Assembly (NCBI GenBank): GCA_022425465.1
Contig: JAKMFK010000170.1
Span: 1-18,435, forward strand
DNA from: Bacteroidia bacterium
GTDB lineage: Bacteria; Bacteroidota; Bacteroidia; NS11-12g; UBA9320
DNA: 18,435 bases
Direction of reading: 5' to 3'
Below are positions 2,082-17,703 of the stretch, piece by piece; positions within the stretch are counted from its first letter, which is position 1; the number at the start of each line of letters is the position of its first letter. The notes under the pieces were generated by a model. It was given only the letters and a program-made list of their open reading frames with translations. It did not search any database and was not told the DNA's origin. The position numbers and the translations under genes were made by a program.

Positions 2082-4829
2082 TTACCTAATAAATTTTGCA
2101 TGACCTACTTTTTCCCCTGCATCAATTCTTAAAAAATAAATTCCTTCGGGTAAATTACTGACGTTAAGACCAATTTCAAAGGTTGGGTTGAAAGAAGATG
2201 ATGCTTTAATAGTTTTACCTTGTGAATCCATAATTTTATAGGATGAGATTAGTTCATCAGTTGATATGGTGAGGACCTCCTGAACAGGGTTTGGGTGTAA
2301 ATTGAACTTGAATGATGGATTTTTTATACTTCCAATATTTTGATTTGCTTGTATTCTTTTATCAGTCCAAACTTGGTATTCTCCAGCAGATAGGTTGAGT
2401 TGTGCAGCCACATCTTTTACATCCATACTGTCACCACTAAAATACTCATACCACGAACCAGTATGTTTAAAATTTGGTACAATAGACTGATTCACAACAT
2501 CAAAATTCCCCAAGACCAAGAAATTTTGTTCAGAGTGATTTAATTGGACCCGTTTAACTTTTTCTGATAAATTAGTGGTAAAATCGTTACCCTCGAATGC
2601 ATCATAGCTAGTTTTAAGTTTATTTATTTCAGAAAAAACGGAGTATACATCTTTTCTGTTTGAGGCTGTATTGTATTCCCATTTGATGGGTTTGTTACCA
2701 ACTCTACCATTATAATCTATGCTGTAGTCGTATCCAAGCTCGCTAAATTGCCAAATTAACTTAGGGCCAGGAATACTGTTAAAAACTACCCAAGTAAGTT
2801 CTAGACGATCTAAAGCCGTATTAAAGTCCTTTATTGAATATGAGCCTGAAACATTTCCAAATTCTAAATTTTTATACATCATTCGCTCTTCATCATGACT
2901 TTGAGCATAGGCAATTAGTTTTGGGTTATTCCAACCACGAGACTGGTGATTTGCCCAATTAAAATTGCCATTATATCCCATAGATGATTCCATTGCATCA
3001 TGACTAATATTACCCCAAAACATACATCCATAATTTGCTAAGTCTTTTTCTTCAGAATTGTCTGCAAAATGCTCCAGGATTATGTAAGAATCTGGATTAA
3101 TAGCTCTTACTTCATTAAATATTCTTTTTATGTTATTTACTCTTGACAAATCATATGCTCCCCATTCGTTCAAATTGCCTAGTGTATTTTTCTGAGTAAA
3201 ACCTTTGGATAGATCAAAACGGAAACCATCAATATGGTATTCGTTTATCCAATACTCTAAATTTTGTTTCATGTATGCTCTGAATGCAGGGCTTTCGTGA
3301 TTAAAATCATACCCAACGTTAAAATCATGTTTAGCGTCTTGGTTAACAAAGGGATTTGTGGCATCAGGCTTATTATTTTTTGAGTCCCAATAGAGTTGAC
3401 ATAGTGGATTCTGACTAAACCCGTGATTGAAAACGACATCTAAGATAACAGCAATACCTCGTTCATGACAAGCATCAACTAACCTTTTAAAATCATTGGG
3501 TGTTCCATAAAATTTATCCAAAGCTCCATGATATGAAGGGTTATATCCCCAACTTTCATTACCTTCAAATTCATTTATTGGCATAAACTCTATTGCATTA
3601 ATGCCTAAATTAGAAAGGTAGTCTAGAGTATCATAAAGACTTTTATAACTATGATCATCTAAAAAATCTCTAACTAATAATTCGTAAATAATTAATTTGT
3701 GTTCCTCTGGTGCTTTGAAACTTTCATCATTCCAATCAAACTCTTTCTTACCCATATCTAGAATAGTAGCATACCCCGTGAATGTTCCAGATTTAATAAT
3801 GTATGGATCAGGGTATACATTTGATTCAATGTATCGATCATTCCATGAGTCTGCAACCAACTCACTGTATGGATCGGCAATTGTTACTTCTCCGTCTACT
3901 AAGTACTGAAAAGCATATTTTTTTGTTGAGTCAAGGTCTTTAATATATGTCCACCAAGTAGAATTGTCGGAATCGAGCTTCATTGCGTAATCGCTTTTGA
4001 CCATCCATTGGGTAAAGTCACCTATGACATGAACATGTTTTTTATTTGGAGCATATAAACTCAGGAAAATACTTGTTGGTGAAACTTTAACCACACCTAA
4101 TTTTGTTGAAATTGGCAAATCTGACTTGTTGGGGCCGCTGAATACAATGAAATTGACTGTGTCATGGACAACATCCGAACCATTTTCAGCTGTCAAAACA
4201 ACTTCATAGTCTCCATCAATAGATGGCTTATAAATATGGTCAATACTATCTCCAATTTCTTCTTTTACCTTAGTTCCGTTAACAAATAGTTTTAGGGTAG
4301 CTGAAGAGGAGGCAAACCCCTTGATTTCAATATTACCTCCTAAGTCATATATGGAATTTGAGAATGGAGCAGCTAATTGCGTATAAAACCCATCATCATA
4401 CAAGTTGATGAAAATATCAGAACCATCAGTATCCCTTCCAGTAATTTCAGCATTTTCACTTCTGAATAAAATCGCAATTTGTAAAATTTTTTCTGTTTTT
4501 GGAGCTCCATAGAATTCATAAATATCACCTATGTTCAAAGTGTATTTATTGTCTGAAATTTTTGTCATTACAGGAGCATTATTTGTGCCCCATTTTCCTT
4601 GAACATATTTCCAATCTGAACCTGTTTTACTTTGATCCGTAATTAAGCCAGTGTGAGCATAAACAGTACCCTGAAAACCCTCTAGGCCTCTATTGCCTAA
4701 AGTAGCATCAAAAGTTAGGATAATTCTATCTTGAGAGCTTGGGAATGGTGGGTTTGGAGAAACAACTTGTGCCCATGAAATTGAAATAATTAATAATAAA
4801 AAAATAGATGTTATTATTGGTCGAATCAT
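2082..4829 (-). CDS. T9SS-sorted multidomain GH13 alpha-amylase family enzyme
   Basis: With the ATG at 4829 the protein is 915 residues and begins with a clean signal peptide cleaved after SWA (residues 18-20). About 220 residues of beta-rich N-terminal modules follow, then a CBM48/E-set-like domain (about 243-340, with HVIGDFTQW), then the GH13 barrel (about 375-740). GH13 conserved regions are all visible: DVVFNH (region I), GFRFDLSKG with nucleophile Asp539, ILEHF with acid/base Glu586, and QSHDEER with Asp646. The C terminus (about 840-915) is a type A T9SS sorting domain, starting NLHPNPVQE and ending HAKFIR. By family the enzyme hydrolyses alpha-1,4-glucans, and the sorting domain implies secretion or surface attachment by T9SS. 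An upstream in-frame ATG at 4928 would bury the signal peptide behind 33 extra residues and is less likely. It is divergent from susC and shares its control region. Whether it acts on alpha-1,6 bonds cannot be decided. Confidence 0.92.
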   Translation of the reverse strand: MIRPIITSIFLLLIISISWAQVVSPNPPFPSSQDRIILTFDATLGNRGLEGFQGTVYAHTGLITDQSKTGSDWKYVQGKWGTNNAPVMTKISDNKYTLNIGDIYEFYGAPKTEKILQIAILFRSENAEITGRDTDGSDIFINLYDDGFYTQLAAPFSNSIYDLGGNIEIKGFASSSATLKLFVNGTKVKEEIGDSIDHIYKPSIDGDYEVVLTAENGSDVVHDTVNFIVFSGPNKSDLPISTKLGVVKVSPTSIFLSLYAPNKKHVHVIGDFTQWMVKSDYAMKLDSDNSTWWTYIKDLDSTKKYAFQYLVDGEVTIADPYSELVADSWNDRYIESNVYPDPYIIKSGTFTGYATILDMGKKEFDWNDESFKAPEEHKLIIYELLVRDFLDDHSYKSLYDTLDYLSNLGINAIEFMPINEFEGNESWGYNPSYHGALDKFYGTPNDFKRLVDACHERGIAVILDVVFNHGFSQNPLCQLYWDSKNNKPDATNPFVNQDAKHDFNVGYDFNHESPAFRAYMKQNLEYWINEYHIDGFRFDLSKGFTQKNTLGNLNEWGAYDLSRVNNIKRIFNEVRAINPDSYIILEHFADNSEEKDLANYGCMFWGNISHDAMESSMGYNGNFNWANHQSRGWNNPKLIAYAQSHDEERMMYKNLEFGNVSGSYSIKDFNTALDRLELTWVVFNSIPGPKLIWQFSELGYDYSIDYNGRVGNKPIKWEYNTASNRKDVYSVFSEINKLKTSYDAFEGNDFTTNLSEKVKRVQLNHSEQNFLVLGNFDVVNQSIVPNFKHTGSWYEYFSGDSMDVKDVAAQLNLSAGEYQVWTDKRIQANQNIGSIKNPSFKFNLHPNPVQEVLTISTDELISSYKIMDSQGKTIKASSSFNPTFEIGLNVSNLPEGIYFLRIDAGEKVGHAKFIR

Positions 4830-4946
4830 ATTTACAAATTTGTATTTTTTTGAATAATTTCTAATTGAATCATATCCAAAAATCAATTTTACAGGTATAA
4901 ATTTAGATTTTATTTTGGCATTAATCAAACTCTATAGTTCTGATTT

Positions 4947-4963
4947 ACAGGTTTTTAACCTGT
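4947..4963. repeat. Inverted repeat in the amylase/susC divergent region
   Basis: The arms ACAGGTT and AACCTGT are perfect 7-bp inverted repeats separated by TTT. The repeat lies between the predicted amylase -7 element (4990-4997) and the amylase start (4829), so it would fall in the amylase 5' untranslated RNA, where it could fold into a tight hairpin. It differs in sequence from the GTGTA/TACAC repeat near susC. It could be a second regulator site or an RNA structure; nothing here decides between them. Confidence 0.5.
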
Positions 4964-5001: not shown

Positions 5002-5009
5002 TATATTTG
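5002..5009 (+). promoter_or_regulatory. Predicted -7 element for susC
   Basis: TATATTTG matches the Bacteroidota -7 consensus TAnnTTTG exactly. It predicts a transcription start near 5016, about 47 bp before the susC ATG, right at the edge of the GTGTA/TACAC inverted repeat. A convincing -33 TTG is not visible, which is common for regulated promoters in this phylum. Confidence 0.5.
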
Positions 5010-5018
5010 TGCCCGTAG

Positions 5019-5043
5019 ACTTTGTGTAAAAACTACACAAAGT
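5019..5043. promoter_or_regulatory. Predicted operator (inverted repeat) of the susC promoter
   Basis: ACTTTGTGTA and TACACAAAGT form a perfect 10-bp inverted repeat around a 5-nt spacer (AAAAC). It lies just downstream of the predicted susC -7 element, where a bound protein would block transcription. The core GTGTA-N5-TACAC recurs with the same spacing at 13040-13054 in front of the regulator and GH65 genes, and the right arm extends the match (TACACAAAGT against TACACTAAGT). The recurrence at the two divergent promoter regions of one locus points to a shared regulator, most simply the Nudix protein encoded at 12247-12996. An mRNA hairpin is the main alternative. Confidence 0.65.
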
Positions 5044-5062
5044 TAGTGGTTAAATAACAATC

Positions 5063-8053
5063 ATGAAAATGAAAAGTGCAATTCTTGGTAGAATAGTCTT
5101 AGTAGTAATTTTACTATCAGCATCATTTGTTGGTTATGCTCAGGTTAAAATCTCAGGTACTATTTTAGACAACATAACAAAAGAACCCTTGGTAGGAGCT
5201 TATGTGGTTCCGGTAAACTTAGAAGGTGGTGCTATTTCAGATACAGAAGGTAAGTTTATTTTAAAGGTCGCCCAACAAATAAATCAATTCAAGGTAAGTT
5301 TTGTGGGATATACTTCCCAAACGATAGACGTTAATGATCAAACCCAGTTTGAAATTCTTTTAGTTTCTGAAGATAGGCTCGATGAAGTATTAGTTATAGC
5401 ATACGGAACCCAAAAAAAATCAGATAAAACAGGTGCCGTCACGCAAGTGACATCCAAAGAGTTAAATAAAGGAAGAATTACGGACCCTATCCAAGGAATG
5501 CAAGGGAAAGCAGCTGGAGTCAATATCTCAAAACAAGGGGGAGATCCCAACGGGGCATTTAGTGTAAACATACGTGGTGCAGCAAGTATAACTGGAGGCA
5601 CAGGGCCTTTGTATGTAGTTGATGGGGTCGTGGGAATTGATCCCACAACCCTCAATCCTGATGATATTGAGTCATTCAATATTCTCAAGGATGCTGCATC
5701 AACATCGCTTTATGGAACACAGGGCTCAAATGGTGTCATTATTATTACCACCAAGGGCGGATCTTTTGGTGCAAAAATTTCTGATCAAATCAATGTAGAA
5801 TACAACAGTTTTATATCGTTTGATAAAGTGTCTAATCGTTTAGATTTCTTGACAGGTGACCAACTTCGTCAATATGCAAATGATGTTAACTCTCAAAACT
5901 TTTCGGATAATGGTGCAAATACAGATTGGATGGATGAAATTTATAGAACGGGTATTTCGCAACAGCATACTTTAGCCTTCAGCAAATCAGATGAAAATAC
6001 GAATTACAGAGCTTCTATTTCTGCTAACAACTTAATGGGTGTTATTAAGGGTTCGAGACGCGATCGATACATTGCACGTTTGAATATTTCTCAAAAAGCA
6101 TTAAATAATAAATTAACTCTTACAGCCAGATTGAGTGGGACATTTCAAAAAAGTGATTTTGTTCAGTATGGTGGTGGGAGTAGTCCAGATAATGTGATTT
6201 ATCAAGCGATGAGAAGAAGTCCAACAGATCCTGTTTATAATGCGGACGGAACATATTATGAGTCAGATCGAAGTTTTCAATACAATAACCCTGTTGCTTT
6301 AATTGAACAAACTCAAAACGAGCAAGATGCAAAAAAATTACTAGGAAATTTTGACGCATCCTATGCAATTACAGATCATTTATCTGCTCAAATTAATACA
6401 GCATATGCAAGAGATGATAATCAATCTTTCTACGCTCAACAGGCGTCTGCTTTCAGTAATACCACCAATGGTCTTGCTGCAAGATCATATAATAACAAAA
6501 ACTATAAATACATTTCTGAGATACTGAATTATAACAACACTTTCAATCAAAAGCACAACTTGAACCTAATAGGTGGACATTCATGGCAGAGTGTTAGTTA
6601 TGACGGATTTAGAGCGGAAGCTAGAAACATTGACCCGTTCTATGAGGATGTTCAATCAAATAACCTTCAGGCATATTCCCAAATTGAATGGGGGTATGTG
6701 TCGTCATATCGGTCAATTGAAGAAGGTTTAGCTTCAATTTTTTCGAGAGCAATTTACGATTTTGATAAAAAATACTATTTGACAGCATCCTTAAGAAGGG
6801 ATAAGTCAACCAAGTACGGTGATGATATTGAATGGGGCACCTTTTGGGCTGTTTCATCTGCTTGGAATATAAATAAGGAAAAATTTATGGAAAACGTTTC
6901 TTTAATTTCTGAGCTCAAATTAAGAGTAGGATATGGACTAACTGGAAACGCAGACATTCCCAACGGGATAGACCGAGTATTATACCGTCCAACGGGTTTA
7001 GCACAAAATGCTGAGACAGGTGAATTAGAAGTGGTATGGAATAACAACCAAGGCAATATCTCCAATCCAAACTTAGCTTGGGAGGAAGTAGATGAAATAA
7101 ATGTAGGTATAGACTTTGGTTTGTTTAAAAATAGAGTATCGGGTTCATTTGAGATATACCAAAAAACAACTAAGGGGCTTGTCATGGAAGTAGCAGTTCC
7201 CGTTCCGCCAAATATCGCACCAAAAAAGTATGAAAATTCAGGAGAGATTCAAAACAACGGTATTGAGTTAACCTTAAATGCTGTTGTTGTTGATAATCAA
7301 AACTTTTCTTGGAAATCAACAGTAGCTTTATCAAGTAACACACAAGAGACAGTTACACTTGGGAATCTTGAAACCAATCAATTAGGTATAAAGAAATTGT
7401 ATGTTTCTGGTCGCGGATTAGTTGGAGGCGATAACTACACACAAGTTATTTTGCCAGGACATGAAATTGGCTCATTTTTCTTGCCAGTCTATGTTGGTTT
7501 GTCAAGTGATGGCAAATTTTTATTTGAAACTGCCTCTGGTGGTGTGACTAGAGATGTTACTCAAGCACAACGACAATTTGTAGGTTCTGCTCAACCAGAC
7601 TTAATTCTTGGGTGGTCTAACTATTTCAAGTTATTTAATGGATTTGATGCTAGTTTCAGTTTGCGTGGAATTTTTGGACATCAAATATTCAATGTTACTA
7701 AGATGGTATTTAGCAATCCTGCAGATGCTCCAACATTAAATGTGTTAGAGTCGGCCATTTCAGGAGAAGCTGCTGGAATAACAAGTGATCCAACAATTAG
7801 TACTTATTACTTAGAAGATGGAGACTTTATAAAACTCGACAATATTTCTTTTGGGTATAATATTCCCTTCAAATCAGAGAGTAGTGTAAAAAATCTAAGA
7901 GTTTTTGTAAATAGCAATAACTTATGGATGTGGACTAAATATACGGGTCTAGACCCAGAGTTGAATTTTAGTGGAACGGAGTTCGGTAGAGACCAATATG
8001 ACGTATATCCTAGAACAACAAGTTTAACGATTGGTCTAAACGCCTCATTTTAA
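5063..8053 (+). CDS. susC: SusC-like TonB-dependent outer-membrane transporter
   Basis: The 996-residue protein has a signal peptide cleaved after GYA (residues 24-26). A CarboxypepD_reg-like Ig domain (about 28-106) follows, then the TonB-box region with DEVLVIAYGT (107-116), a plug domain with GPLYVVDGV and the NGVIIITTKGG end, and a beta-barrel to the C terminus. The chain ends in an aromatic residue (LNASF), usual for outer-membrane barrels. In the Sus paradigm SusC is the TonB-driven channel that takes up malto-oligosaccharides delivered by SusD. SusC proteins import many glycans, so substrate assignment to starch rests on the surrounding GH13 and GH65 genes. A second ATG two codons in (MKMK) is an equally possible start. 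It leads the susC-susD-susE operon, with 21 bp to susD, and a predicted promoter and operator lie directly upstream. Confidence 0.95.
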   Translation: MKMKSAILGRIVLVVILLSASFVGYAQVKISGTILDNITKEPLVGAYVVPVNLEGGAISDTEGKFILKVAQQINQFKVSFVGYTSQTIDVNDQTQFEILLVSEDRLDEVLVIAYGTQKKSDKTGAVTQVTSKELNKGRITDPIQGMQGKAAGVNISKQGGDPNGAFSVNIRGAASITGGTGPLYVVDGVVGIDPTTLNPDDIESFNILKDAASTSLYGTQGSNGVIIITTKGGSFGAKISDQINVEYNSFISFDKVSNRLDFLTGDQLRQYANDVNSQNFSDNGANTDWMDEIYRTGISQQHTLAFSKSDENTNYRASISANNLMGVIKGSRRDRYIARLNISQKALNNKLTLTARLSGTFQKSDFVQYGGGSSPDNVIYQAMRRSPTDPVYNADGTYYESDRSFQYNNPVALIEQTQNEQDAKKLLGNFDASYAITDHLSAQINTAYARDDNQSFYAQQASAFSNTTNGLAARSYNNKNYKYISEILNYNNTFNQKHNLNLIGGHSWQSVSYDGFRAEARNIDPFYEDVQSNNLQAYSQIEWGYVSSYRSIEEGLASIFSRAIYDFDKKYYLTASLRRDKSTKYGDDIEWGTFWAVSSAWNINKEKFMENVSLISELKLRVGYGLTGNADIPNGIDRVLYRPTGLAQNAETGELEVVWNNNQGNISNPNLAWEEVDEINVGIDFGLFKNRVSGSFEIYQKTTKGLVMEVAVPVPPNIAPKKYENSGEIQNNGIELTLNAVVVDNQNFSWKSTVALSSNTQETVTLGNLETNQLGIKKLYVSGRGLVGGDNYTQVILPGHEIGSFFLPVYVGLSSDGKFLFETASGGVTRDVTQAQRQFVGSAQPDLILGWSNYFKLFNGFDASFSLRGIFGHQIFNVTKMVFSNPADAPTLNVLESAISGEAAGITSDPTISTYYLEDGDFIKLDNISFGYNIPFKSESSVKNLRVFVNSNNLWMWTKYTGLDPELNFSGTEFGRDQYDVYPRTTSLTIGLNASF

Positions 8054-8074
8054 ATAATATCAGAATTTGTAAAA

Positions 8075-9529
8075 ATGAAAAAAATACTTTATTCAATTTG
8101 TGTATTACTGACAGTCTCATGTACCAAATTTGATGATGCTTTATATGATAGTAGTTCAAAAGCAAAACAATCTATCGGTCCAGTGTATAAAGAACTTGCA
8201 GACCTTATTGATGATAATGGTTGGTGGTTTTGGGCTCAAGAGGTAAGTAGTGATGAAGTAGTTTTTCCTGTTCGGGGAACAGATTGGAATGACGGAGGAA
8301 AGTGGAGAGTACTACACCAACATACTTGGACAAATGACGTTGATGCAGTTAATTCTATGTGGTCACATTTATTTGATGGAGTCAGAGAGGCAAATAAATT
8401 ATTAGATGTATTATCCGATCAACAAGGAGATCCCTTAGTGGCAGTAGATATTGCAAAAATTAAGACTCTCCGTGCATTTTTTATGTACTTAGCAATGGAT
8501 AATTATGGAGATATTCCTATTATTACATCTTTTGTTAACGCATCTCCTCTTCCACTTAAAGAAAAACGAGAGGAAGTATACGAATTTTTAATAAATGATT
8601 TAAAGCCAATAGCTTCCCTTCTTCCAATTAGTACAAACAAATTTGCTGTTTCCAGAGGAATGGCATACAGTCTAATGGCTAAGCTTTATCTTAATGCAGA
8701 GGTATACACCGGAACTCCAGCTTATGCTGAAGCTGAGGCTATGTGTGACAGTATAATAAACTTAGGTAATTATGCTTTACAAAATGATGTAACATCAGCA
8801 TTTGCTGCTGACAATGTAAATATTCCTGAAAATATTTTTACGATTGCATTCGATGAATTTGATAACACAGGATTTAGGCTTCACATGCGAACTTTACATT
8901 ATCTCCATGACGCTACATTTAATATGAAAGTAGGTCCATGGAATGGTTTTGCTATCGTGAAAGATCATTACGATAAATATGAGGATGATGATCTAAGGAA
9001 AAATGAATGGTTCATTGTAGGGCAACAAAAAGATGCAAATGGAACAGACTTATTTGATGAGACAGCTGGAACTAAGCTAGTCATTGATCCATACATTCCA
9101 AAATTAGTAATGGATGCCTCAAATACACCAAATGAAATTCGAAATTCGGGAGCTCGCGTAAAAAAATATGAAATTGAAAGTGGAGCACTAGAAAATTTGA
9201 ATAATGATTTTCCATTATTTAGATACGCTGATATCTTATTAATGAAGGCTGAATGTGCTGTTAGAAATGGTTCGGCGGGTGACGGAGATGAATGGCTAAA
9301 CTTAATTAGACAAAGAGCAAATATTAGTTCAATTGCTGGTGCTAGTTTAGACGATATTCTTGAAGAACGAGGGCGAGAATTATTTTGTGAGGGTCATCGT
9401 AGACAAGATTTGATCAGATTTGGAAAGTTTGGAGATGCCTGGTGGGAAAAATCGCCATCAGGATCGGATAAAACTATTTTCCCTATACCACAATGGGCGA
9501 TTGACGCCAACCCAAATTTAGGCTTATAA
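8075..9529 (+). CDS. susD: SusD-like glycan-binding outer-membrane lipoprotein
   Basis: This 484-residue protein begins with a lipoprotein signal, lipobox TVSC with the lipidated cysteine at residue 16. The body has the features of the SusD/RagB family: an early helical part with DGVREANKLLDVL, the TLRAFFMYLAMDNYGDIPI segment, and the C-terminal LFRYADILLMKAECAVRNG and ERGRELFCEGHRRQDLIRFG blocks. SusD caps the SusC channel on the cell surface and binds the glycan before transport. It follows susC by 21 bp with no terminator, so the two are surely co-transcribed. The nearby GH13 and GH65 genes suggest malto-oligosaccharide or starch as ligand, but ligand residues cannot be read from sequence alone. 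Confidence 0.94.
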   Translation: MKKILYSICVLLTVSCTKFDDALYDSSSKAKQSIGPVYKELADLIDDNGWWFWAQEVSSDEVVFPVRGTDWNDGGKWRVLHQHTWTNDVDAVNSMWSHLFDGVREANKLLDVLSDQQGDPLVAVDIAKIKTLRAFFMYLAMDNYGDIPIITSFVNASPLPLKEKREEVYEFLINDLKPIASLLPISTNKFAVSRGMAYSLMAKLYLNAEVYTGTPAYAEAEAMCDSIINLGNYALQNDVTSAFAADNVNIPENIFTIAFDEFDNTGFRLHMRTLHYLHDATFNMKVGPWNGFAIVKDHYDKYEDDDLRKNEWFIVGQQKDANGTDLFDETAGTKLVIDPYIPKLVMDASNTPNEIRNSGARVKKYEIESGALENLNNDFPLFRYADILLMKAECAVRNGSAGDGDEWLNLIRQRANISSIAGASLDDILEERGRELFCEGHRRQDLIRFGKFGDAWWEKSPSGSDKTIFPIPQWAIDANPNLGL

Positions 9530-9565
9530 TTAAATTTTTATATATAACAACAAACAACAAACAAA

Positions 9566-10765
9566 ATGAGAAATTTATCTTTAAAACTGACAAAAAACGT
9601 GGCTGTAATCGCCGCATTATTTGGTCTAATTTCATTAAATTCGTGTAAAGACGACGATGAAGACCCAACACCAACAAACAATGCCATTGTTGAAGATGGC
9701 TTTTACATTCAAGGTGACGCAACTGCATACGCCGATTTTGATATAAAAGCAACACTTTCAACCACTAAAAATGAGGTATTACAAGAGGAAAGAAGTAGTT
9801 TGATGGAAATTTACGTAGCCGTAAAGGGTACTGGTGGATTTAACATCATACAAGTTAACGGTTCCGAGAGAACTACATGGGGTCCTTCTTCGGAGTTTGC
9901 ATTAACTCCTTCAAGAAATGAAGAACCTAACGAAGACGGAATGGATATCATTCAACGAGGAGCTATCCAAGCAACTGATGCTAAATTCTCAGTAGCTGAG
10001 GATGGACTTTATCACGTAATTATTGATACTGAACTAGGAGTAGGTGCAATTTTACCGGTAAAATGGGGCGTTATTGGTCAGGCTACACCTACTGGATGGT
10101 CTGGAAGCACTGCATTAGAATTACCAGCTTTTGATTTCAACTCGATGAAATTTAAGGCTGAAAATGTTGAAATGTCAAATGGAGAATGGAAATTCAGATA
10201 TACCAACGGTTGGAAAGTACAATTAGATACTAGTTTGGATTTAGGAGTTGAAGGCAAAAAGGGAGTTTATGCAAACTGTAACTATGGTGGAACTGTAGAA
10301 GCACTTGATGCAGGTGGAGCTAACTTCAACACTGGTCAAAGTGGAATTTACAATGTAGATATTACCTGGACAGCTGGCTCTGGTCATACTGCTTCACTAA
10401 CTCGTGTAGGTGACGTTCCAGCTAGAGATTATTCAGCTGTATCTGTTGGTCTAATTGGCGATGGAGTTGTAGGTGGAGACTGGAATGGAGAGAAATATGC
10501 ATCAACACCAGCAAAAAATGGAGACGTTTATACTTGGAATTTTAATGGTGTTGAATTGAACAATACTGGAGGATTCAAACTAAGAACTGCTGGTACTTGG
10601 GATGACATCAATGAAGGGTATAGTGACATTATTGGAGGTCCTGATGCTTCCGAAATTCAAGAGAGTGGAGGAAATATGCAGGCTGTAAACGGCGGTATGT
10701 TTGACATCGAATTTGTTATTGATGCTGCTGCTGAAACTAAAAGTATATCAATTACAAAAAAATAA
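9566..10765 (+). CDS. susE: SusE/SusF-like surface starch-binding lipoprotein
   Basis: The 399-residue protein has a lipoprotein signal ending LNSC, with the cysteine at residue 27. The run KDDDED follows directly; this lysine-plus-acidic pattern matches the Bacteroidota lipoprotein export signal for display on the outer surface. After an N-terminal beta domain there are two related modules in tandem, one starting near VKWGVIGQATPTGW and one near SVGLIGDGVVGGDW, each with Trp and aromatic residues as in SusE/SusF starch-binding modules. In the Sus model such proteins hold starch at the surface and are not catalytic. It follows susD by 36 bp, with a striking A-rich leader (repeated ACAAACA) before the ATG, and is followed by a strong terminator. 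Fewer modules than SusF fits SusE better, but the E/F label is loose. Confidence 0.85.
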   Translation: MRNLSLKLTKNVAVIAALFGLISLNSCKDDDEDPTPTNNAIVEDGFYIQGDATAYADFDIKATLSTTKNEVLQEERSSLMEIYVAVKGTGGFNIIQVNGSERTTWGPSSEFALTPSRNEEPNEDGMDIIQRGAIQATDAKFSVAEDGLYHVIIDTELGVGAILPVKWGVIGQATPTGWSGSTALELPAFDFNSMKFKAENVEMSNGEWKFRYTNGWKVQLDTSLDLGVEGKKGVYANCNYGGTVEALDAGGANFNTGQSGIYNVDITWTAGSGHTASLTRVGDVPARDYSAVSVGLIGDGVVGGDWNGEKYASTPAKNGDVYTWNFNGVELNNTGGFKLRTAGTWDDINEGYSDIIGGPDASEIQESGGNMQAVNGGMFDIEFVIDAAAETKSISITKK

Positions 10766-10781
10766 TTTAGTTGGTTTTTTT

Positions 10782-10816
10782 AAAAAAGGGGATCCATTTG
10801 GGGTCCCTTTTTTTTT
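10782..10816. terminator. Bidirectional rho-independent terminator between susE and the MFS gene
   Basis: AAAAAAGGG pairs with CCCTTTTTT, with extra inner pairing around an ATTT loop, and a run of nine T follows on the plus strand. Because the left arm begins with six A, the minus strand also reads a GC stem followed by a T run. The hairpin can therefore serve both convergent operons: susC-susD-susE from the left and regulator-MFS from the right. It begins 17 bp after the susE stop. Confidence 0.85.
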
Positions 10817-10866
10817 GGACAAAGTTGTAGAATTAGTATTAGCTAAAAATAGGACTATGAAATGGG

Positions 10867-12243
10867 TTAATCCTTAATCGCTTTTTTATTTGTAATTATT
10901 AAGTTGCACAGCCCTGAAATGGTTAAGCAAGTTCCAGCCAATAACATAGGTCCAATAGCTTTTTCCCCAAATAATATTTCTGAAAAGAAATTAATTCCAC
11001 CTATAGAGGCAACGATTTGTGGGATAACGATAAACATATTGAAAATACCCATAAAGATTCCCATTTTTTCAGCTTCAATCGAGCTAGATAACATGGCATA
11101 GGGCAATGATAAAATACTCCCCCATGCAATACCAATAAGTGTAAAAGACACATTGAGATTCTTATAATCGTTAGCATAATACATATAGAAAAAACCTATG
11201 CCACCTAAAATCAATGATACCATGTGAACCATTTTCCTATTGATAGAAATTTTTCGAGTAATAAGTGTGAATATAAGAGCAAAAATCATAGAAGAAAGCC
11301 CATATATTCCCATTGATGAACCAATTTGATCGGCGGCATCGTTGTATAGCCTGTCTTTTACTTGATAGACTGCTAATTCCTCCTGAATAGACATTTTAAA
11401 CATTGCTGCATCTGGTTTTGGAGCTTGAAAGACATGCTCTGAAAGTGCTGGTGTAGACATACTCCACATTGTAAAAAAGGCAAACCACGAAAAAAACTGA
11501 ATTAAGCCCAATTTTCTCATTGTCACTGGCATGGATCGAATATCACTAATTATTGCACTTATTCCCTTGCTAAAACCAGCAGTTTCTTTTTTATGTTTTT
11601 CAAAAGCTTCAAGATTTTCAGGAGGATATTCTTTAGTGGTTAAAACAGTGTATAGAATAGATAATAAAAATATGACGCCTCCTATAGCAAAGGCTACTTT
11701 TACATTGGGGGGGATAGTAGATTCCTCAGCAGTATTACTAACTCCCATTTGATTTAAAAACCAAGGTAATTGACTTGCAATCCAAGTACCGACACCTATG
11801 ATTAATGTTTGTACCATGAAACCGTATGATCGTTGAGAATCGTCCAATTTATCAGCAACTAAAGCTCGAAAGGGCTCCATGCTAATATTGATTGACGCAT
11901 CAAGCACTAATAAACTTCCTGCGGCAACCCATAGATAGGAAGAGTGCGGCATATATATCAAAGTAATTGATGCGAACAGAGATCCTATTAAAAAGTATGG
12001 TTTTCTTCTTCCAAAACGACTACTCCAAGTGCGATCACTCATGTATCCAATTATTGGTTGAACAACTAATCCTGCGACTGGGGCAGCTAACCATAAACCG
12101 GGTATCTCTTCAGGCGAAGCACCTAAAGTTTGAAAAATTCGAGACATAAATCCTCCTTGAAGTGCAAATCCGAATTGAATTCCAAGAAATCCAAAACTCA
12201 TATTCCAAACATCAAGAAAGCTTAATATGGGCTTCTTTTTCAT
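10867..12243 (-). CDS. MFS sugar transporter, probable maltose/maltodextrin uptake
   Basis: The 458-residue protein is hydrophobic, with about 12 predicted membrane segments. It carries the loop motif SDRTWSSRFGRRKPYFLIG, typical of the GPH/SLC45-like sugar transporter group, and MEPFRALVADKL in the fourth-to-fifth segment region. A longer hydrophilic stretch (about residues 200-235) between the two six-helix halves is normal for the family. It should carry sugar through the inner membrane by cation symport. Placement between susCDE and a GH65 maltose phosphorylase, and in one operon with the regulator, argues for maltose or short maltodextrins; a different glucoside is possible. Its ATG lies 3 bp after the stop of the Nudix regulator gene, so the two are co-transcribed and probably translationally linked. 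Confidence 0.88.
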   Translation of the reverse strand: MKKKPILSFLDVWNMSFGFLGIQFGFALQGGFMSRIFQTLGASPEEIPGLWLAAPVAGLVVQPIIGYMSDRTWSSRFGRRKPYFLIGSLFASITLIYMPHSSYLWVAAGSLLVLDASINISMEPFRALVADKLDDSQRSYGFMVQTLIIGVGTWIASQLPWFLNQMGVSNTAEESTIPPNVKVAFAIGGVIFLLSILYTVLTTKEYPPENLEAFEKHKKETAGFSKGISAIISDIRSMPVTMRKLGLIQFFSWFAFFTMWSMSTPALSEHVFQAPKPDAAMFKMSIQEELAVYQVKDRLYNDAADQIGSSMGIYGLSSMIFALIFTLITRKISINRKMVHMVSLILGGIGFFYMYYANDYKNLNVSFTLIGIAWGSILSLPYAMLSSSIEAEKMGIFMGIFNMFIVIPQIVASIGGINFFSEILFGEKAIGPMLLAGTCLTISGLCNLIITNKKAIKD

Positions 12244-12246
12244 GAA

Positions 12247-12996
12247 TTAGTAAAATTTAAACTTGTGATTGTTATCATTCTCAAATTCTTTTTCTATGAA
12301 TTTATAGAGACGTGCGGGCTTGTGAGGTACTCCCTCCTGGAAGTTGTCTGTTTCTTTCAAGAATCCTGTTTTCAATATTCTTCTTAAAAAATTTCTTCGA
12401 TCAAGTTTTGAATTCAAAATAGTATTGTATAGTGTATACAAATGATTAAGAGGGAAATATTTAGGCAACAGCTTGAATCCAACAGGTTCATGATAAAGTT
12501 TATTCCTTAATTTAATTATGGCTGTACGTAATATGTGGTTGTGGTCAAAACCTAATTCACCAACCTCATTAAAATCCTCCCATATAACATGTTTAGCAAA
12601 TCCAGCAGGTCTAATAGTGTAATTTTTGATGTTTACCAATGCAAAATATCCTATTGTTATTACACGAGATTCTGGGATTGGACGCACTAGGTCTAACCAA
12701 ACTTTATCTCTATCCTTAGCTAGACGATTTAAACTTCCAAATGCCCCAATTTGTTCTAAAAACAAATTATCAATTCCAGTTAAATCTAATAAAACTCTGG
12801 ATGCAGCGTCTTCTAAATCCTCATCTATATAAATTAAATCTCCCGGTAAAACGAGTGTGTCATCACCGTTATCAAGGTTATCCCTCAAATCTCTTTGAAC
12901 TAGCAGTACCTTTAAACTAAAGCCATCAAAACCGAAAACTACGCAATCTACCGAGACACTGTGGTTAATATTATTAGTTTTTCTGTTTGATTCCAT
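12247..12996 (-). CDS. Nudix-domain transcriptional regulator (NrtR/AraR-like) of the maltose/starch locus
   Basis: The 249-residue protein has an N-terminal Nudix domain (about 12-150) and a C-terminal winged-helix region (about 175-235) with the helix DRRNFLRR at 199-206 and later KPARLYKF, the pattern of NrtR-type regulators. The Nudix box (residues 52-75) is degenerate. The family form is G-x5-E-x7-R-E-U-x-E-E-x-G-U; here it reads GDLIYID, EDLEDAAS, RVLLDLTGI, so metal-binding glutamates are lost and one residue is inserted. This argues for a ligand sensor rather than a hydrolase. Family members bind ADP-ribose (NrtR) or sugars (AraR of Bacteroides); the effector here is unknown, with maltose or a related sugar the obvious candidate. 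It is first in an operon with the MFS gene and divergent from GH65. A palindrome in its promoter region suggests autoregulation. Confidence 0.85.
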   Translation of the reverse strand: MESNRKTNNINHSVSVDCVVFGFDGFSLKVLLVQRDLRDNLDNGDDTLVLPGDLIYIDEDLEDAASRVLLDLTGIDNLFLEQIGAFGSLNRLAKDRDKVWLDLVRPIPESRVITIGYFALVNIKNYTIRPAGFAKHVIWEDFNEVGELGFDHNHILRTAIIKLRNKLYHEPVGFKLLPKYFPLNHLYTLYNTILNSKLDRRNFLRRILKTGFLKETDNFQEGVPHKPARLYKFIEKEFENDNNHKFKFY

Positions 12997-13035
12997 TCTT
13001 TAATTCAAATTAAGTAAAAATTTATCTATTTTTTT

Positions 13036-13044
13036 CAAAGTGTA
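13036..13044 (-). promoter_or_regulatory. Possible imperfect -7 element of the regulator operon
   Basis: On the minus strand the sequence reads TACACTTTG, like TAnnTTTG but with one extra base between TA and TTTG. It overlaps the left arm of the GTGTA/TACAC palindrome and lies about 40 bp upstream of the regulator start. The mismatch in spacing makes this a weak call; no exact match is seen on this strand of the intergenic region. Confidence 0.25.
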
Positions 13045-13058
13045 TATTTTACACTAAG
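13039..13058. promoter_or_regulatory. Predicted operator between the regulator and GH65 operons
   Basis: AGTGTA and TACACT form a perfect 6-bp inverted repeat with a 5-nt spacer (TATTT) at 13039-13055. The core GTGTA-N5-TACAC is the same as at susC (5024-5038), and the right side matches for 9 of 10 bases (TACACTAAGT against TACACAAAGT). The repeat touches the predicted -7 element of the GH65 operon and lies within 45 bp of the regulator start, so one bound protein could control both divergent operons. Confidence 0.6.
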
Positions 13059-13062
13059 TTTG
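13055..13062 (+). promoter_or_regulatory. Predicted -7 element of the GH65-GH13-GH13 operon
   Basis: TAAGTTTG matches the Bacteroidota -7 consensus TAnnTTTG exactly and overlaps the last base of the palindrome. It predicts a transcription start near 13069 and a leader of about 145 nt before the GH65 ATG. No clear -33 TTG is seen. Confidence 0.45.
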
Positions 13063-13213: not shown

Positions 13214-15439
13214 ATGAAAAATTACATTAAATACCATCCATGGGAAATTATTGAGGAGGGCTTTAATACTGAATTAAATCGTGTGTCAGAAAGTCTATTC
13301 TCAATAGGCAATGGCAAATTTGGTCATCGAGGAAATTTTGAGGAAACATATACGGGGGATTCTCTTGGTGGTAATTATGTTGCGGGTGTATATTATCCTG
13401 ATAAGACTAGAGTTGGCTGGTGGAAAAATGGTTATCCAGAATATTTTGCTAAGGTTTTGAATGCACCTAATTGGACAAAATTATCAATTAAAATTAACGG
13501 TGAAATTCTAGATTTAGCCCATACTAAGGTTATAGATTTTAAGCGTGTTCTTGATATGAAAAATGGGTTTCTTATTCGCAATTTTAGTACGAAACTTAAA
13601 AATGGAATTTGCGTAACTGTTCATGCTAGTAGATTTTGTAGTTTGGATCAAGATGACATGGGTGCTTTGTCCTATAGTTTCACCGTAGATCAACCTGCTG
13701 AAATTCAGGTTTCTTCTTATATTGATGGAAATATTAAGAATGAAGATTCCAATTACGATGAGTTTTTTTGGGAGAATATCAAATCCGAATCCAATGATAA
13801 TCTGTGTACACTTATTTTAAGAACTAAGAAGACCCATTTTTATGTTGGAGTTAAAACGGAAACCAATTTATTCATAAATAATGAAAAGATAAATCATTTT
13901 CAGTCACTAAAATCTTCAACGAACTCTCCTTCTGTAAGTGCTAGTTTTTCGATACAACCTAATCAGTCTATTACTATTGAAAAAAAAGCGATTGTACTTT
14001 CTTCATTGAATGTAGATAAGGGTCTAATTGATCAAGTGTTGGTTAATGAGATTAGTAGTTTTCAAAAGTTGTGTTATGAAGATTTGTTGAATAATCATAA
14101 AAAAGCATGGGCAAAAAAATGGAATGAGTCTGATATAATCATTGAGGGTGATATCGTAGCCCAGCAAGCTATTCGATTTAATATTTTTCAGTTGAATTGT
14201 ACGTATAGTGGAAATGATGAACGATTAAATATTGGACCGAAAGGTTTTACAGGAGAAAAATATGGAGGAAGTACATATTGGGATACAGAAGCCTACTGTC
14301 TTCCTTTTTATCAATCAACTGCAGATAAGAGTGTAGCTAGAAATTTGTTAATTTACCGATATAACCATTTATCTAAAGCAATTGAAAATGCCGAAAAATT
14401 GGGATTTTCTGGTGGAGCAGCCCTATACCCCATGGTTACCATGAATGGTGAGGAATGTCATAATGAGTGGGAAATAACTTTTGAGGAAATTCATCGAAAT
14501 GGAGCTATTGCTTATGGGATATATGATTATATTAATTATACGGCTGATAAAAAGTATTTAGCTGAGTATGGGCTTGAAGTGCTTATTGGTATTGCAAGAT
14601 TTTGGAAACAACGCGTAAACTGGAGTGAAGAAAAACAAGCATATGTTATGCTTGGAGTGACTGGTCCCAATGAATTTGAAAATAACGTAAACAATAACTG
14701 GTATACGAATAAAATGGCTACATGGTGCCTAAATTATTGTGAGGAATCAATTGATTGGGTGAAGGAAAATTACCCTACTGATTATCAGCGAATATGTAAA
14801 GTTAGCGACTTTGATGAAAATGAGCGAAAAGCATGGGCTTTAATTACCAATCAAATGTATTACCCCTTTTCAGACAAGTATAATATTTACCTTCAGCAGG
14901 ACGGATTTTTAGACAAGGAGTTGATACCTGTAAGTCAGTTAAGTGACGATGAACGTCCAATTGTGGAACATTGGAGTTGGGATAAAATATTAAGAAGTTG
15001 CTTCATTAAACAAGCGGATGTGTTACAAGGGCTGTATTATTTTGAAAATGAGTTTACACAAGAAGAATTACAAAGACATTACGATTTTTACGAACCACTA
15101 ACTGTTCACGAATCTTCACTTAGTCCATGTATCCACAGCATACTCGCAGCAAAATTAGGTGATGAAAAAAGAGCGTATGACTTCTATTTAAGAACTGCAC
15201 GGCTGGATTTAAATGACTATAATAATGACACACGTGACGGATTGCACATTACAAGTATGGCTGGTACTTGGATGACTATAATTAAGGGATTTGCAGGGAT
15301 GGAGGTAAAAAATGACCAGCTTATTTTTAGTCCTTTATTACCCAAAAATTGGGAGAGCTTATCTTTTAAAATCAAATTTAGAGATGAAATTCAGCACGTT
15401 TTTTTAGATAAGAACGGGATAAAAATAAACATCAATTAG
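13214..15439 (+). CDS. mapA: GH65 maltose phosphorylase
   Basis: The 741-residue protein has the GH65 layout: N-terminal beta-sandwich (about 10-255), helical linker, (alpha/alpha)6 catalytic barrel (about 310-690) and small C-terminal domain. The catalytic segment NGEECHNEWEITFEEIHRNG (about 411-430) is the form seen in maltose phosphorylases; the general acid should be Glu418. The phosphate-site regions are present: KQADVLQGLY, then HESSLS from His632, and DGLHITSMAGTW with His678. It has no signal peptide, so it acts in the cytoplasm, where it should convert maltose plus phosphate to glucose plus beta-glucose-1-phosphate. Length is usual for the family. Kojibiose or trehalose phosphorylase are related alternatives, but the motif and the starch-locus setting favour maltose. 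It heads an operon: the next ATG is 8 bp after its stop. Confidence 0.9.
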   Translation: MKNYIKYHPWEIIEEGFNTELNRVSESLFSIGNGKFGHRGNFEETYTGDSLGGNYVAGVYYPDKTRVGWWKNGYPEYFAKVLNAPNWTKLSIKINGEILDLAHTKVIDFKRVLDMKNGFLIRNFSTKLKNGICVTVHASRFCSLDQDDMGALSYSFTVDQPAEIQVSSYIDGNIKNEDSNYDEFFWENIKSESNDNLCTLILRTKKTHFYVGVKTETNLFINNEKINHFQSLKSSTNSPSVSASFSIQPNQSITIEKKAIVLSSLNVDKGLIDQVLVNEISSFQKLCYEDLLNNHKKAWAKKWNESDIIIEGDIVAQQAIRFNIFQLNCTYSGNDERLNIGPKGFTGEKYGGSTYWDTEAYCLPFYQSTADKSVARNLLIYRYNHLSKAIENAEKLGFSGGAALYPMVTMNGEECHNEWEITFEEIHRNGAIAYGIYDYINYTADKKYLAEYGLEVLIGIARFWKQRVNWSEEKQAYVMLGVTGPNEFENNVNNNWYTNKMATWCLNYCEESIDWVKENYPTDYQRICKVSDFDENERKAWALITNQMYYPFSDKYNIYLQQDGFLDKELIPVSQLSDDERPIVEHWSWDKILRSCFIKQADVLQGLYYFENEFTQEELQRHYDFYEPLTVHESSLSPCIHSILAAKLGDEKRAYDFYLRTARLDLNDYNNDTRDGLHITSMAGTWMTIIKGFAGMEVKNDQLIFSPLLPKNWESLSFKIKFRDEIQHVFLDKNGIKININ

Positions 15440-15447
15440 TTTTGAAT

Positions 15448-17703
15448 ATGAACCCATTTAAGGAAATAAAAACATACATTTTGATGGTAATTGGATGGAT
15501 TTTTTTGCTTCTATCATGTTCAAAGGGGAATAGGACATATAGTTCTGCCATATATGGACTTGCTACCCCAATAGAACTTACAGACGATACCACTTATGCT
15601 TTATTATCTGATTATTTTCAATCTGCAATTAAAATTGATTCCTTAAAAATCACTGATGAAATTGAGTGTAAAATAATTGGGGACTCTATTCAATTTGTAT
15701 CTCATGCCCCAAAACAGCTAAATGTTTTGACACTTTACCATAAAAGTGTTCCTTATTCAATTCTGGTCAAAAAATCCAGATTTTCTAAATTTACGCTTAA
15801 TTTCAAACCTCCAAAAAAATATGGGCAAGTTTGTGTAAAAGGTGAGTTCAATCAGTGGAATGAAAAAGGAAGTAGTTTAAAATACGATTCAAATATGAAT
15901 AGTTGGGTTATTCATCTTGATTTAGAACCAGGACTATATGCTTATAAACTCGTAGCCGATAATAATGAAATTTTAGATATAAAAAATCCCAATCAAATTT
16001 CAAATGGCATGGGAGGTGTCAATAATTTTTTTAAAATTACAGAATTAAACAATAATCTAGAATCATTTATACAGACAAAAAAAATTACGGATAACCAGAT
16101 TATAATATCTAGTAAAAATATAAATCAAGTATACGCACTATGGGAAAACACTTTATTAGATGTAGATTTAAAGAATGGTGATTTTTATGTCAAAATACCC
16201 AAAAAAGCAAGTGATTTACATCGTTCTCATATCAGAATTTTTGGTTGTAATCAACAAACAACTAGTAACGACTTACTCATACCTCTATCAAATGGGCAAG
16301 TTATCTCTGACCCAAGACAATTAGATTCATCAGATTGGCACAATAGCGTCATGTATTTTATGATGATAGATCGTTTTTTTGATGGGGATACTTTAAATAA
16401 TGAAATTGTCAAAGATGAACGAATCCTTGCTAAAGCCCAGTATTTTGGTGGAGATATTAATGGGATAACTCAAAAAATAAGAGGCGGATATTTTCATCAA
16501 TTGGGTGTTAATACAATTTGGATTTCTCCCATCACCCAAAATCCTATTGATGCTTGGGGCCAATTTGAGAACCCTAATACTAAATTTAGTGGTTATCATG
16601 GATATTGGCCAGTCACAAGTACAACTACGGATTATAGACTCGGATCTGGATCGGATGTAAGAGAAATGCTGTCAGTTGCACATAAAAATGGTTTAAAAGT
16701 AATTCTTGATTATGTAGCCAATCATATCCATGAACAACATAGTGTCTTTAAAGATCATCCTGATTGGGTTACTCCTTTATATTTACCTGATGGGACCATG
16801 AACACTGAAAGATGGGATGAATATAGACTTACAACGTGGTTTGATACTTTCCTGCCAACACTCAATTTAGAAAATCAAAAAATCGCTAATTTCATGATTG
16901 ATTCTGCTATTTTTTGGATTGAAGAATATGATTTTGATGGTTTTAGACACGATGCCACTAAGCATATACCACTAAATTTTTGGCGTACCCTTAATAAAAA
17001 AGTAAAACTAGTTAGTCAAAAAAAAGGGAAATACATTTATCAAATTGGAGAAACATATGGTAGTCATAGTTTAATTAAAAGCTATATTAATAGTGGTATG
17101 CTTGATGCTCAATTTGACTTTAACCTTTATGATAATGCTCTCCCTGTTTTTGCCAAAAATACTGAGGATATGCGTCGTTTGGGAGATGCATTAAAAAACA
17201 GCCTAGCTAATTATGGGAGTCATCATTTGATGGGTAATATCACGGGTAATCAAGACAAACCAAGGTTTATTAGTTATGCTGACGGAACGCTTGATTTTGA
17301 AACACCTTGGATAGAATATAAACGAATTGGTTGGACACAAGATATTAAGGTTCAGGACACACTTGCCTATAAAAAACTTGCCCTATTTCATGCGTTTAAT
17401 ATGACAATACCTGGCATCCCTATTATTTATTACGGTGACGAATATGGATTACCAGGAGCTGGTGATCCTGATAATAGAAGAATGATGCAATTTAAGAATC
17501 TTCAAACTAGAGAGGAGTCATTAAGACAAGAAATAAAAAAATTAATTGACATAAGGCTATCAAATATGGCTTTAATCTATGGAGATTTCGAAATTACTGA
17601 GAATACAATTAATAAGCTTTCTTATAAACGAAAATACTTTGACAATGAGGTAAGTGTAACTTTAGATAAACACAAATGGACATACACTATCAATACTAAA
17701 TAA
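15448..17703 (+). CDS. GH13 alpha-amylase family lipoprotein with N-terminal CBM48-like domain
   Basis: From the ATG at 15448 the protein has 751 residues and a lipoprotein signal with lipobox LLSC and cysteine 24. An in-frame TTG two codons earlier is a less likely start. A beta-rich region precedes a CBM48/E-set-like domain (about 110-190, with VKGEFNQW), then a GH13 barrel from about residue 297. Catalytic regions: DYVANH (Asp421), GFRHDATKH with nucleophile Asp502, QIGETYG with acid/base Glu535, and GNQDKPR with Asp603. In region IV the usual His of NHD is Gln602. By family it cleaves or rearranges malto-oligosaccharides; neopullulanase or cyclomaltodextrinase-like activity is plausible. 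No acidic export signal follows the cysteine (SKGN), so a periplasm-facing anchor is likely. It lies 8 bp after GH65 and abuts the next gene. Confidence 0.9.
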   Translation: MNPFKEIKTYILMVIGWIFLLLSCSKGNRTYSSAIYGLATPIELTDDTTYALLSDYFQSAIKIDSLKITDEIECKIIGDSIQFVSHAPKQLNVLTLYHKSVPYSILVKKSRFSKFTLNFKPPKKYGQVCVKGEFNQWNEKGSSLKYDSNMNSWVIHLDLEPGLYAYKLVADNNEILDIKNPNQISNGMGGVNNFFKITELNNNLESFIQTKKITDNQIIISSKNINQVYALWENTLLDVDLKNGDFYVKIPKKASDLHRSHIRIFGCNQQTTSNDLLIPLSNGQVISDPRQLDSSDWHNSVMYFMMIDRFFDGDTLNNEIVKDERILAKAQYFGGDINGITQKIRGGYFHQLGVNTIWISPITQNPIDAWGQFENPNTKFSGYHGYWPVTSTTTDYRLGSGSDVREMLSVAHKNGLKVILDYVANHIHEQHSVFKDHPDWVTPLYLPDGTMNTERWDEYRLTTWFDTFLPTLNLENQKIANFMIDSAIFWIEEYDFDGFRHDATKHIPLNFWRTLNKKVKLVSQKKGKYIYQIGETYGSHSLIKSYINSGMLDAQFDFNLYDNALPVFAKNTEDMRRLGDALKNSLANYGSHHLMGNITGNQDKPRFISYADGTLDFETPWIEYKRIGWTQDIKVQDTLAYKKLALFHAFNMTIPGIPIIYYGDEYGLPGAGDPDNRRMMQFKNLQTREESLRQEIKKLIDIRLSNMALIYGDFEITENTINKLSYKRKYFDNEVSVTLDKHKWTYTINTK

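Follow-up and report, generated by a model that had tools for sequence, protein, structure and literature searches.

Palindromic sites at a starch locus of a Bacteroidia bacterium as putative operators of a Nudix-type regulator of the NrtR/AraR kind

The closest described relative of the regulator considered here is AraR of Bacteroides thetaiotaomicron (BT0354, hereafter BtAraR), a member of the NrtR family described as a dimer that L-arabinose releases from DNA (PMC4666351). The operator with which it was crystallised contains GTGTTACTTTTACAC, that is GTGT-N7-ACAC, and the contacts given for its recognition helix are Lys179, Arg180, Asn181 and Lys184 (PMC4666351). XylR (BT0791) of the same species is a predicted NrtR-type regulator of the xylose pathway (PMC3878776, PMC4666351), and the starch regulator SusR, also of this species, is described as an activator bound to the membrane, with predicted operators made of direct repeats at a distance of 67 or 77 bp (PMC3878776). 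Here we analyse a stretch of 18,435 bp from a Bacteroidia bacterium (contig JAKMFK010000170.1, hereafter the window), which carries a starch locus with genes of the SusC/SusD type, a gene for a Nudix-type protein (12247-12996), and two palindromes with the core GTGTA-N5-TACAC, one in each of two divergent control regions (Table 1). Judging from sequence and predicted structure, it is very likely that these palindromes are operators of the Nudix-type protein, and that the latter acts as a repressor of the NrtR/AraR kind and responds to a sugar.

The coordinates bear out an earlier note on this DNA, which had reported inverted repeats with the same core and spacing at both control regions. The core is exact at 5024-5038 in operator 1, which is also the one inverted repeat of the window whose 10-bp arms match exactly (at spacers of 3-12), and at 13040-13054 in operator 2 (GTGTATATTTTACAC), where 6-bp arms, AGTGTA-N5-TACACT, span 13039-13055 with the 5-nucleotide spacer of operator 1. 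The agreement at 9 of 10 flanking bases that the note had given is right for the ten bases from TACAC onwards (TACACAAAGT and TACACTAAGT). The source genome (1.78 Mb, 88% complete) has three exact copies of the bare core against about two expected from the base composition of the window, and 30 places with at most one mismatch against 35 for a control pattern. Of the exact copies, two are located in the divergent intergenic regions (together 351 bp), where about 0.0004 are expected; the third lies within an open reading frame (ORF) that presumably has to do with cytochrome-c biogenesis. The extended 25-bp pattern ACTTAGTGTA-N5-TACACTAAGT, with at most three mismatches, matches this genome at 5019-5043 and 13035-13059 only, against one match for its control, in a scan that is partly non-independent because the pattern was built from relatives of this locus. 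The operator signal lies in the location and the extended motif, the bare core not being rare genome-wide.

Both positions recur in the genus. At susC promoters the site starts 22-25 nucleotides after the start of TAnnTTTG, which we take to be the -7 consensus, in 8/8 loci (window included); GTGT-N7-ACAC is exact in four of these, and one half is GCGT in the other four. At the position of operator 2, the core is exact in all ten genus loci shown (window included), and in the same ten TACACTAAGTTTG is present and TAAGTTTG overlaps the right arm of the site between the regulator and GH65 genes.

By its domains and predicted fold, the window protein is a regulator of the NrtR/AraR type, in which a Nudix domain is joined to a winged helix. 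It matches the Pfam families NrtR_WHD (PF21906, 9.3e-21), AraR_C (PF19368, 3.3e-13) and NUDIX (PF00293, 7.3e-5), all above cut-off, and its best solved relative by sequence is BtAraR (3e-39, regulator residues 7-244). Apo structures of BtAraR are also the top PDB matches of its AlphaFold2 model (predicted local distance difference test, pLDDT, 88.1), with template modelling (TM) scores of 0.74-0.75. The catalytic box of the Nudix domain, REUxEE (PMC4666351), is impaired, residues 67-72 reading R-V-L-L-D-L by eye in the translation. Of the residues that contact DNA in BtAraR, the window protein keeps D178, R180 and N181, and K179R, K184R and R205K are found at three others, so that the recognition helix reads D-R-R-N with R at 184. 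Names are given for 33 of the 120 top relatives listed from databases, 28 being called 8-oxo-dGTP diphosphatase and three NUDIX hydrolase; the first of these names is probably wrong, and a regulator whose relatives are named after a nucleotide enzyme is hidden by its annotation.

The window protein resembles BtAraR in its inactive Nudix domain with winged helix, in the GTGT-N7-ACAC geometry of its putative operators and in the helix pattern D-K/R-R-N, but it shares 33% identity with it (structural alignment) and is encoded among genes for alpha-glucan rather than arabinose use. An AraR orthologue was rejected, as the protein belongs to a separate clade of 98 members (support 81) in which GH65/GH13 neighbours are enriched, and its pocket carries F36L, G48D and F49L. 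XylR, set beside the window protein by description only, is likewise an NrtR-type sugar regulator of Bacteroidetes but is assigned to the xylose pathway. NrtR of Shewanella oneidensis (3GZ5, 3GZ6) and NadQ have the Nudix domain and winged helix in common with the window protein (TM score of 0.65 to NrtR) but differ in their effectors, ADP-ribose or NAD, and in their NAD genes; an NrtR of NAD metabolism was rejected on a score of 104 bits against the NCBIfam NtrR equivalog, whose cut-off is 400. Control of a starch locus with SusC/SusD is what the regulator would share with SusR, a type that was rejected for a 249-aa Nudix protein with an inverted-repeat operator.

The earlier note had called Nudix-type control of such a locus unusual, which overstates its novelty, since the sources cited above describe two such regulators in Bacteroidetes, AraR from experiment and XylR from prediction. 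Family and operator geometry are known from AraR; new, as far as the literature searched goes, are the alpha-glucan branch, its regulon, and the pairing of helix with half-site. Among the open-licence papers listed, no title or abstract start was found in which starch or maltose genes are placed under a Nudix regulator, a search that extended neither to RegPrecise nor to most subscription papers. The switching of starch loci outside Bacteroides seems to be poorly known. For the alpha-glucan loci of many Flavobacteriales and related bacteria, the present data offer a concrete candidate regulator with its operator, regulons that should be predictable from sequence, and a specificity code that the pairing of helix and half-site makes accessible to bench tests.

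The site was followed through 120 loci around relatives of the regulator (L086-L094 were dropped before counting as repeats of L046-L055), 16 paralogue loci, and a class-wide sample of 30 loci plus 80 matches picked from listed matches, drawn through the AraR_C family, which is present in 115/295 genomes. The resulting 245 family segments were reduced to the 242 that score 80 or more and have 60 or more nucleotides upstream and, after removal of those with an identical 80-residue stretch, to 231 proteins, which form the sample. In a count that assumed no motif (all 1024 5-mers with their reverse complements, spacers 1-12, 300 nucleotides upstream of the 231 genes), the top words in the 132 members with the recognition helix DKRN were AGTGT-N7-ACACT (60) and GTGTA-N5-TACAC (51), against a maximum of 5 in 20 shuffles. 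In the clade of 98, defined on a family tree from which the helix columns were excluded, GTGT-N7-ACAC lies upstream of the regulator in 82 members, while spacer 5 occurs in three and spacers 3, 4, 6 and 8-11 in none. Conservation in loci that keep the Nudix gene, which the earlier note had set beforehand as a test, thus held. A GH65 or GH13 homologue lies within equal 3.5-kb flanks in 37 of 69 clade members versus 3 of 94 others, from which the clade appears to be largely devoted to alpha-glucans; this count supersedes an earlier one on unequal stretches (68/98 versus 3/133, medians 17.0 versus 8.7 kb). GH65 and SusE are present in all 11 genus genomes with a regulator orthologue. The bare core separates the genus weakly, with 40 copies in these 11 whole genomes and 20 in the eight that lack an orthologue.

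The same site marks likely targets. In 93 clade loci, regulator upstream regions aside, we counted 59 GTGT-N7-ACAC sites in 145.7 kb of non-coding DNA (4.05 per 10 kb; the first 60 nucleotides of each ORF were counted as non-coding, starts being uncertain) and 11 in 1299 kb of coding DNA (0.085 per 10 kb), a density about 48 times higher outside genes. None of the other spacings between 2 and 12 exceeds 0.48 per 10 kb. A SusC, GH13, MFS or GH65 homologue starts within 400 nucleotides of 49 of the 59 non-coding sites. In the marine Profundicola chukchiensis KMM 9724, one of the clade, a GH13 gene is preceded by the site. Across 19 genus genomes, the 25-bp pattern gave 35 forward matches versus 5 for the control; sorted by gene by hand, 27 lie at susC, GH13 or this regulator, two upstream of the paralogue treated below, three elsewhere, and two, probably three, before phosphoenolpyruvate (PEP) carboxykinase. 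With this distribution, and two matches in the source genome, the extended motif is not found at many unrelated promoters, a point on which the operator proposal of the earlier note had been open to attack.

The relation between site and protein can also be followed among paralogues. The source genome encodes two proteins of the family, the second of which (contig C293, 2-523, plus strand) is broken off by the contig end and adjoins a transporter. Neighbouring ORFs read like GH3, GH16 and SusD (by reading the sequence; SusD also by search), and the locus is probably one for laminarin. In relatives of this paralogue the operator occupies the same frame with other half-sites, ACTTAAAGTA-N5-TACTATAAGT. 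An intact operator of this AAGTA type was not found in the source genome, where the nearest places have two to three mismatches (five forward versus four control) and the region upstream of the paralogue is beyond the contig end.

Grouped by helix residues 178-181, GTGT-N7-ACAC is found upstream of 99/132 DKRN and 17/32 DRRN members (116/164 with K/R179-R180) versus 1/67 others, and in spacer controls GTGT at spacers 6 and 8 occurs in 0/231, at 5 in four and at 9 in seven. The AAGTA type is absent from all 164 DKRN and DRRN members and present in 10/17 DKPN, 2/8 DKSN and 1/1 DISN. GCGTA accompanies 2/5 DNRN and 2/32 DRRN, TTGTA 3/5 DVRN, 1/7 DTRN and 2/4 DKGN, and none of these half-sites occurs with DKAN (0/9). 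The regulators with Asn179 at L151 8520 and L160 9967 have palindromes with GCGTA half-sites, with perfect 10-bp arms in L151. Since Lys179 contacts a G in the crystal, loss of the G with V or T at 179 is expected. Half-sites thus go with helix residues 179/180 among paralogues, which ties the site to the protein. Over nine independent supported branch pairs, GTGT follows the helix in 4.6 and shows no difference in 4.4 on average; the opposite direction averages 0.0 and appeared in one of 200 random pairings. For the other half-sites, independent changes are too few for a tree-corrected test. In 39 loci of three other helix groups, GTGT sites number 0 in 42.1 kb of non-coding DNA and two in coding DNA, and AAGTA, GCGTA and TTGTA have no non-coding targets beyond the regulator upstream regions, so that for these three the code is read from those upstream sites only. 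On this basis we lean, with some reserve, towards a broader proposal: Bacteroidota would hold many Nudix-type sugar repressors, for the most part undescribed, that share one 25-bp operator frame and keep their regulons separate by two helix residues (K/R179-R180 with GTGTA, K179-P/S180 with AAGTA, N179 with GCGTA, V/T179 with TTGTA), and this code would keep apart the alpha-glucan regulator of the source genome and its paralogue with GH16/GH3 neighbours.

The earlier note had proposed that the Nudix protein has its operator in these palindromes, which would mark out a starch regulon; at the level of sequence, this gains support from the winged helix, the BtAraR match, the GTGT-N7-ACAC geometry and the conservation of the site. 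We infer each of three further elements, namely binding, repression in preference to activation, and the effector. With sugar absent, the regulator dimer would grip GTGT-N7-ACAC by its winged helices; at 5019-5043 it would block susCDE shortly after the predicted start, and at 13035-13059 it would block two operons at once, its own with the transporter and that of GH65 and GH13. A breakdown product of maltodextrin, likeliest maltose or a close relative, would enter the inactive Nudix pocket, and the dimer would be released. One site past the susC start and another over the GH65 -7 element would suit steric repression.

The same protein and operator might instead serve activation, or act both ways, which we consider unlikely. 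The repressing role is carried over from BtAraR, some relatives have their sites well upstream, at about -90 to -150 of the conserved region of the regulator, and in two congeners an operator copy stands about 130-170 nucleotides before PEP carboxykinase, all of which leaves room for an activator; the susC site just past the predicted start in 8/8 genus loci and the overlap of the GH65 site with the candidate -7 element in 10/10 argue for a repressor. Quite improbable is the case that the palindromes belong to another factor, of LacI, GntR or Crp type and encoded elsewhere, with the Nudix protein a bystander. The earlier note mentioned LacI-type control for starch systems of Bacteroidota, which would fit such a case, but the spacing equals that of the BtAraR operator, the site accompanies the regulator gene through the clade (82/98), GTGT is absent from the non-coding DNA of the other-helix loci, and half-sites that vary with the recognition helix among Nudix paralogues are unexpected for a bystander. 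That the palindromes are chance, RNA structures or terminators is hardly credible: the bare-core count is near expectation genome-wide and operator 1 would fall in the susC leader, where it could form a hairpin, but operator 2 sits in a region of divergent promoters, the site recurs at promoters of the same kinds in distant genomes, with a spacer that is constant in length and variable in sequence, and chance was rejected on the upstream word counts versus shuffles, the clade conservation and the non-coding density.

Several observations weigh against a repressor of the NrtR/AraR kind acting at these operators. Two BtAraR contacts are changed in the window protein, R183 to L and K204 to H. The exact site is missing upstream in 16 of the 98 clade members, four of them one mismatch off, and for 10 of the 59 sites in non-coding DNA the adjoining gene is of another kind or was not recognised. 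In four genus genomes (G013, G021, G022, G024; drafts resembling metagenome-assembled genomes, 67-97% complete), susC has the site and a regulator orthologue was not detected. A separate operator is lacking at the GH13 gene at 2082-4928, in the window as in the two nearest relatives, and no core within two mismatches was found in the 3.3-kb stretch of contig C192 that holds the kinase and beta-phosphoglucomutase-like genes described below. The tree-corrected pairing of GTGT with the helix is not significant (median p 0.06, range 0.03-0.38). Finally, GTGT is common to K/R-R members, and the window protein would therefore not be singled out if a second such member lay in the missing 12% of the genome.

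Table 1. Features of the window, with positions counted from its first letter.
Feature	Position	Strand	Remarks
GH13 with Por secretion tail	2082..4928	-	divergent from susC
Candidate -7 element of susC promoter	5002..5009	+	TATATTTG (TAnnTTTG)
Operator 1 (putative)	5019..5043	.	perfect 25-bp palindrome ACTTTGTGTA-AAAAC-TACACAAAGT, just past predicted susC transcription start
SusC-like TonB-dependent transporter	5063..8053	+	
SusD-like lipoprotein	8075..9529	+	
SusE/SusF-like protein	9566..10765	+	
MFS sugar transporter	10867..12243	-	same direction as regulator gene, 3 nt after it
Nudix-type regulator, NrtR/AraR type, 249 aa	12247..12996	-	
Operator 2 (putative)	13035..13059	.	TCAAAGTGTA-TATTT-TACACTAAGT, between divergent regulator and GH65 genes
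Candidate -7 element of GH65 operon	13055..13062	+	TAAGTTTG, overlaps operator 2 right arm
GH65 glycosidase/phosphorylase	13214..15439	+	
GH13 with AMPK1-type glycogen-binding module	15442..17703	+	
GH13-like, broken off by contig end	17704..18435	+	weak matches, below cut-offs

The genes of the locus are consistent with alpha-glucan use. The GH65 protein would be of the maltose phosphorylase type. In relatives, the operon includes, in the interval between the regulator and GH65, a BadF-like ATPase/kinase (under the Pfam cut-off) and a HAD protein that appears to be a beta-phosphoglucomutase; kinase, beta-phosphoglucomutase-like protein and GH65 together suggest a maltose phosphorylase route. 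In the source genome and in the close relative G018 the kinase and beta-phosphoglucomutase-like genes are relocated, in the former to contig C192, and the kinase of G018 is preceded by a one-mismatch site. The divergent GH13 gene has its own operator in 5/8 genus loci compared (window included). The claim of the earlier note that the two control regions serve every starch gene is too wide, given that the GH13 gene at 2082-4928, the kinase and the beta-phosphoglucomutase are without a site. The MFS transporter scores 96.9 against a sucrose/proton symporter model, far under its cut-off of 511.

As to the effector, the pocket residues R34, R86, F129 and H131 of BtAraR are kept in the window protein, and with them, probably, the sugar hydroxyl network. 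The equivalents of R86, F129 and H131 are invariant in the clade (98/98), and position 34 is R or Q (52/46). The pocket differs from that of BtAraR at the three positions given above, of which 48 is D or N in the clade and 49 mostly L or H; in addition, an insertion of about 15 residues precedes R86. Position 89, G in BtAraR, is E in the window protein and E, D or Q in 85/98 clade members, but the paralogue clade (16) has A, L, V or M there. Because GH65 and the transporter are in the putative regulon, maltose, or a compound formed directly by its cleavage, is the likeliest effector, a proposal we hold at about even confidence. ADP-ribose is unlikely for this branch in view of its relatedness to AraR and of the low score against NtrR.

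Two further observations concern sites in the genus and in the window. A near-perfect operator stands before PEP carboxykinase in G019 and G027, and another copy occupies a matching place in G015, near a contig end; the site is not conserved, occurring in 2 of 16 genus genomes with the gene and not in the source genome (in this count, the upstream region in G017 was outside the data, and the match in G028 begins at residue 80). Between susC and the divergent GH13 gene, a 7-bp inverted repeat, ACAGGTT-TTT-AACCTGT, was spotted by eye at 4947-4963.

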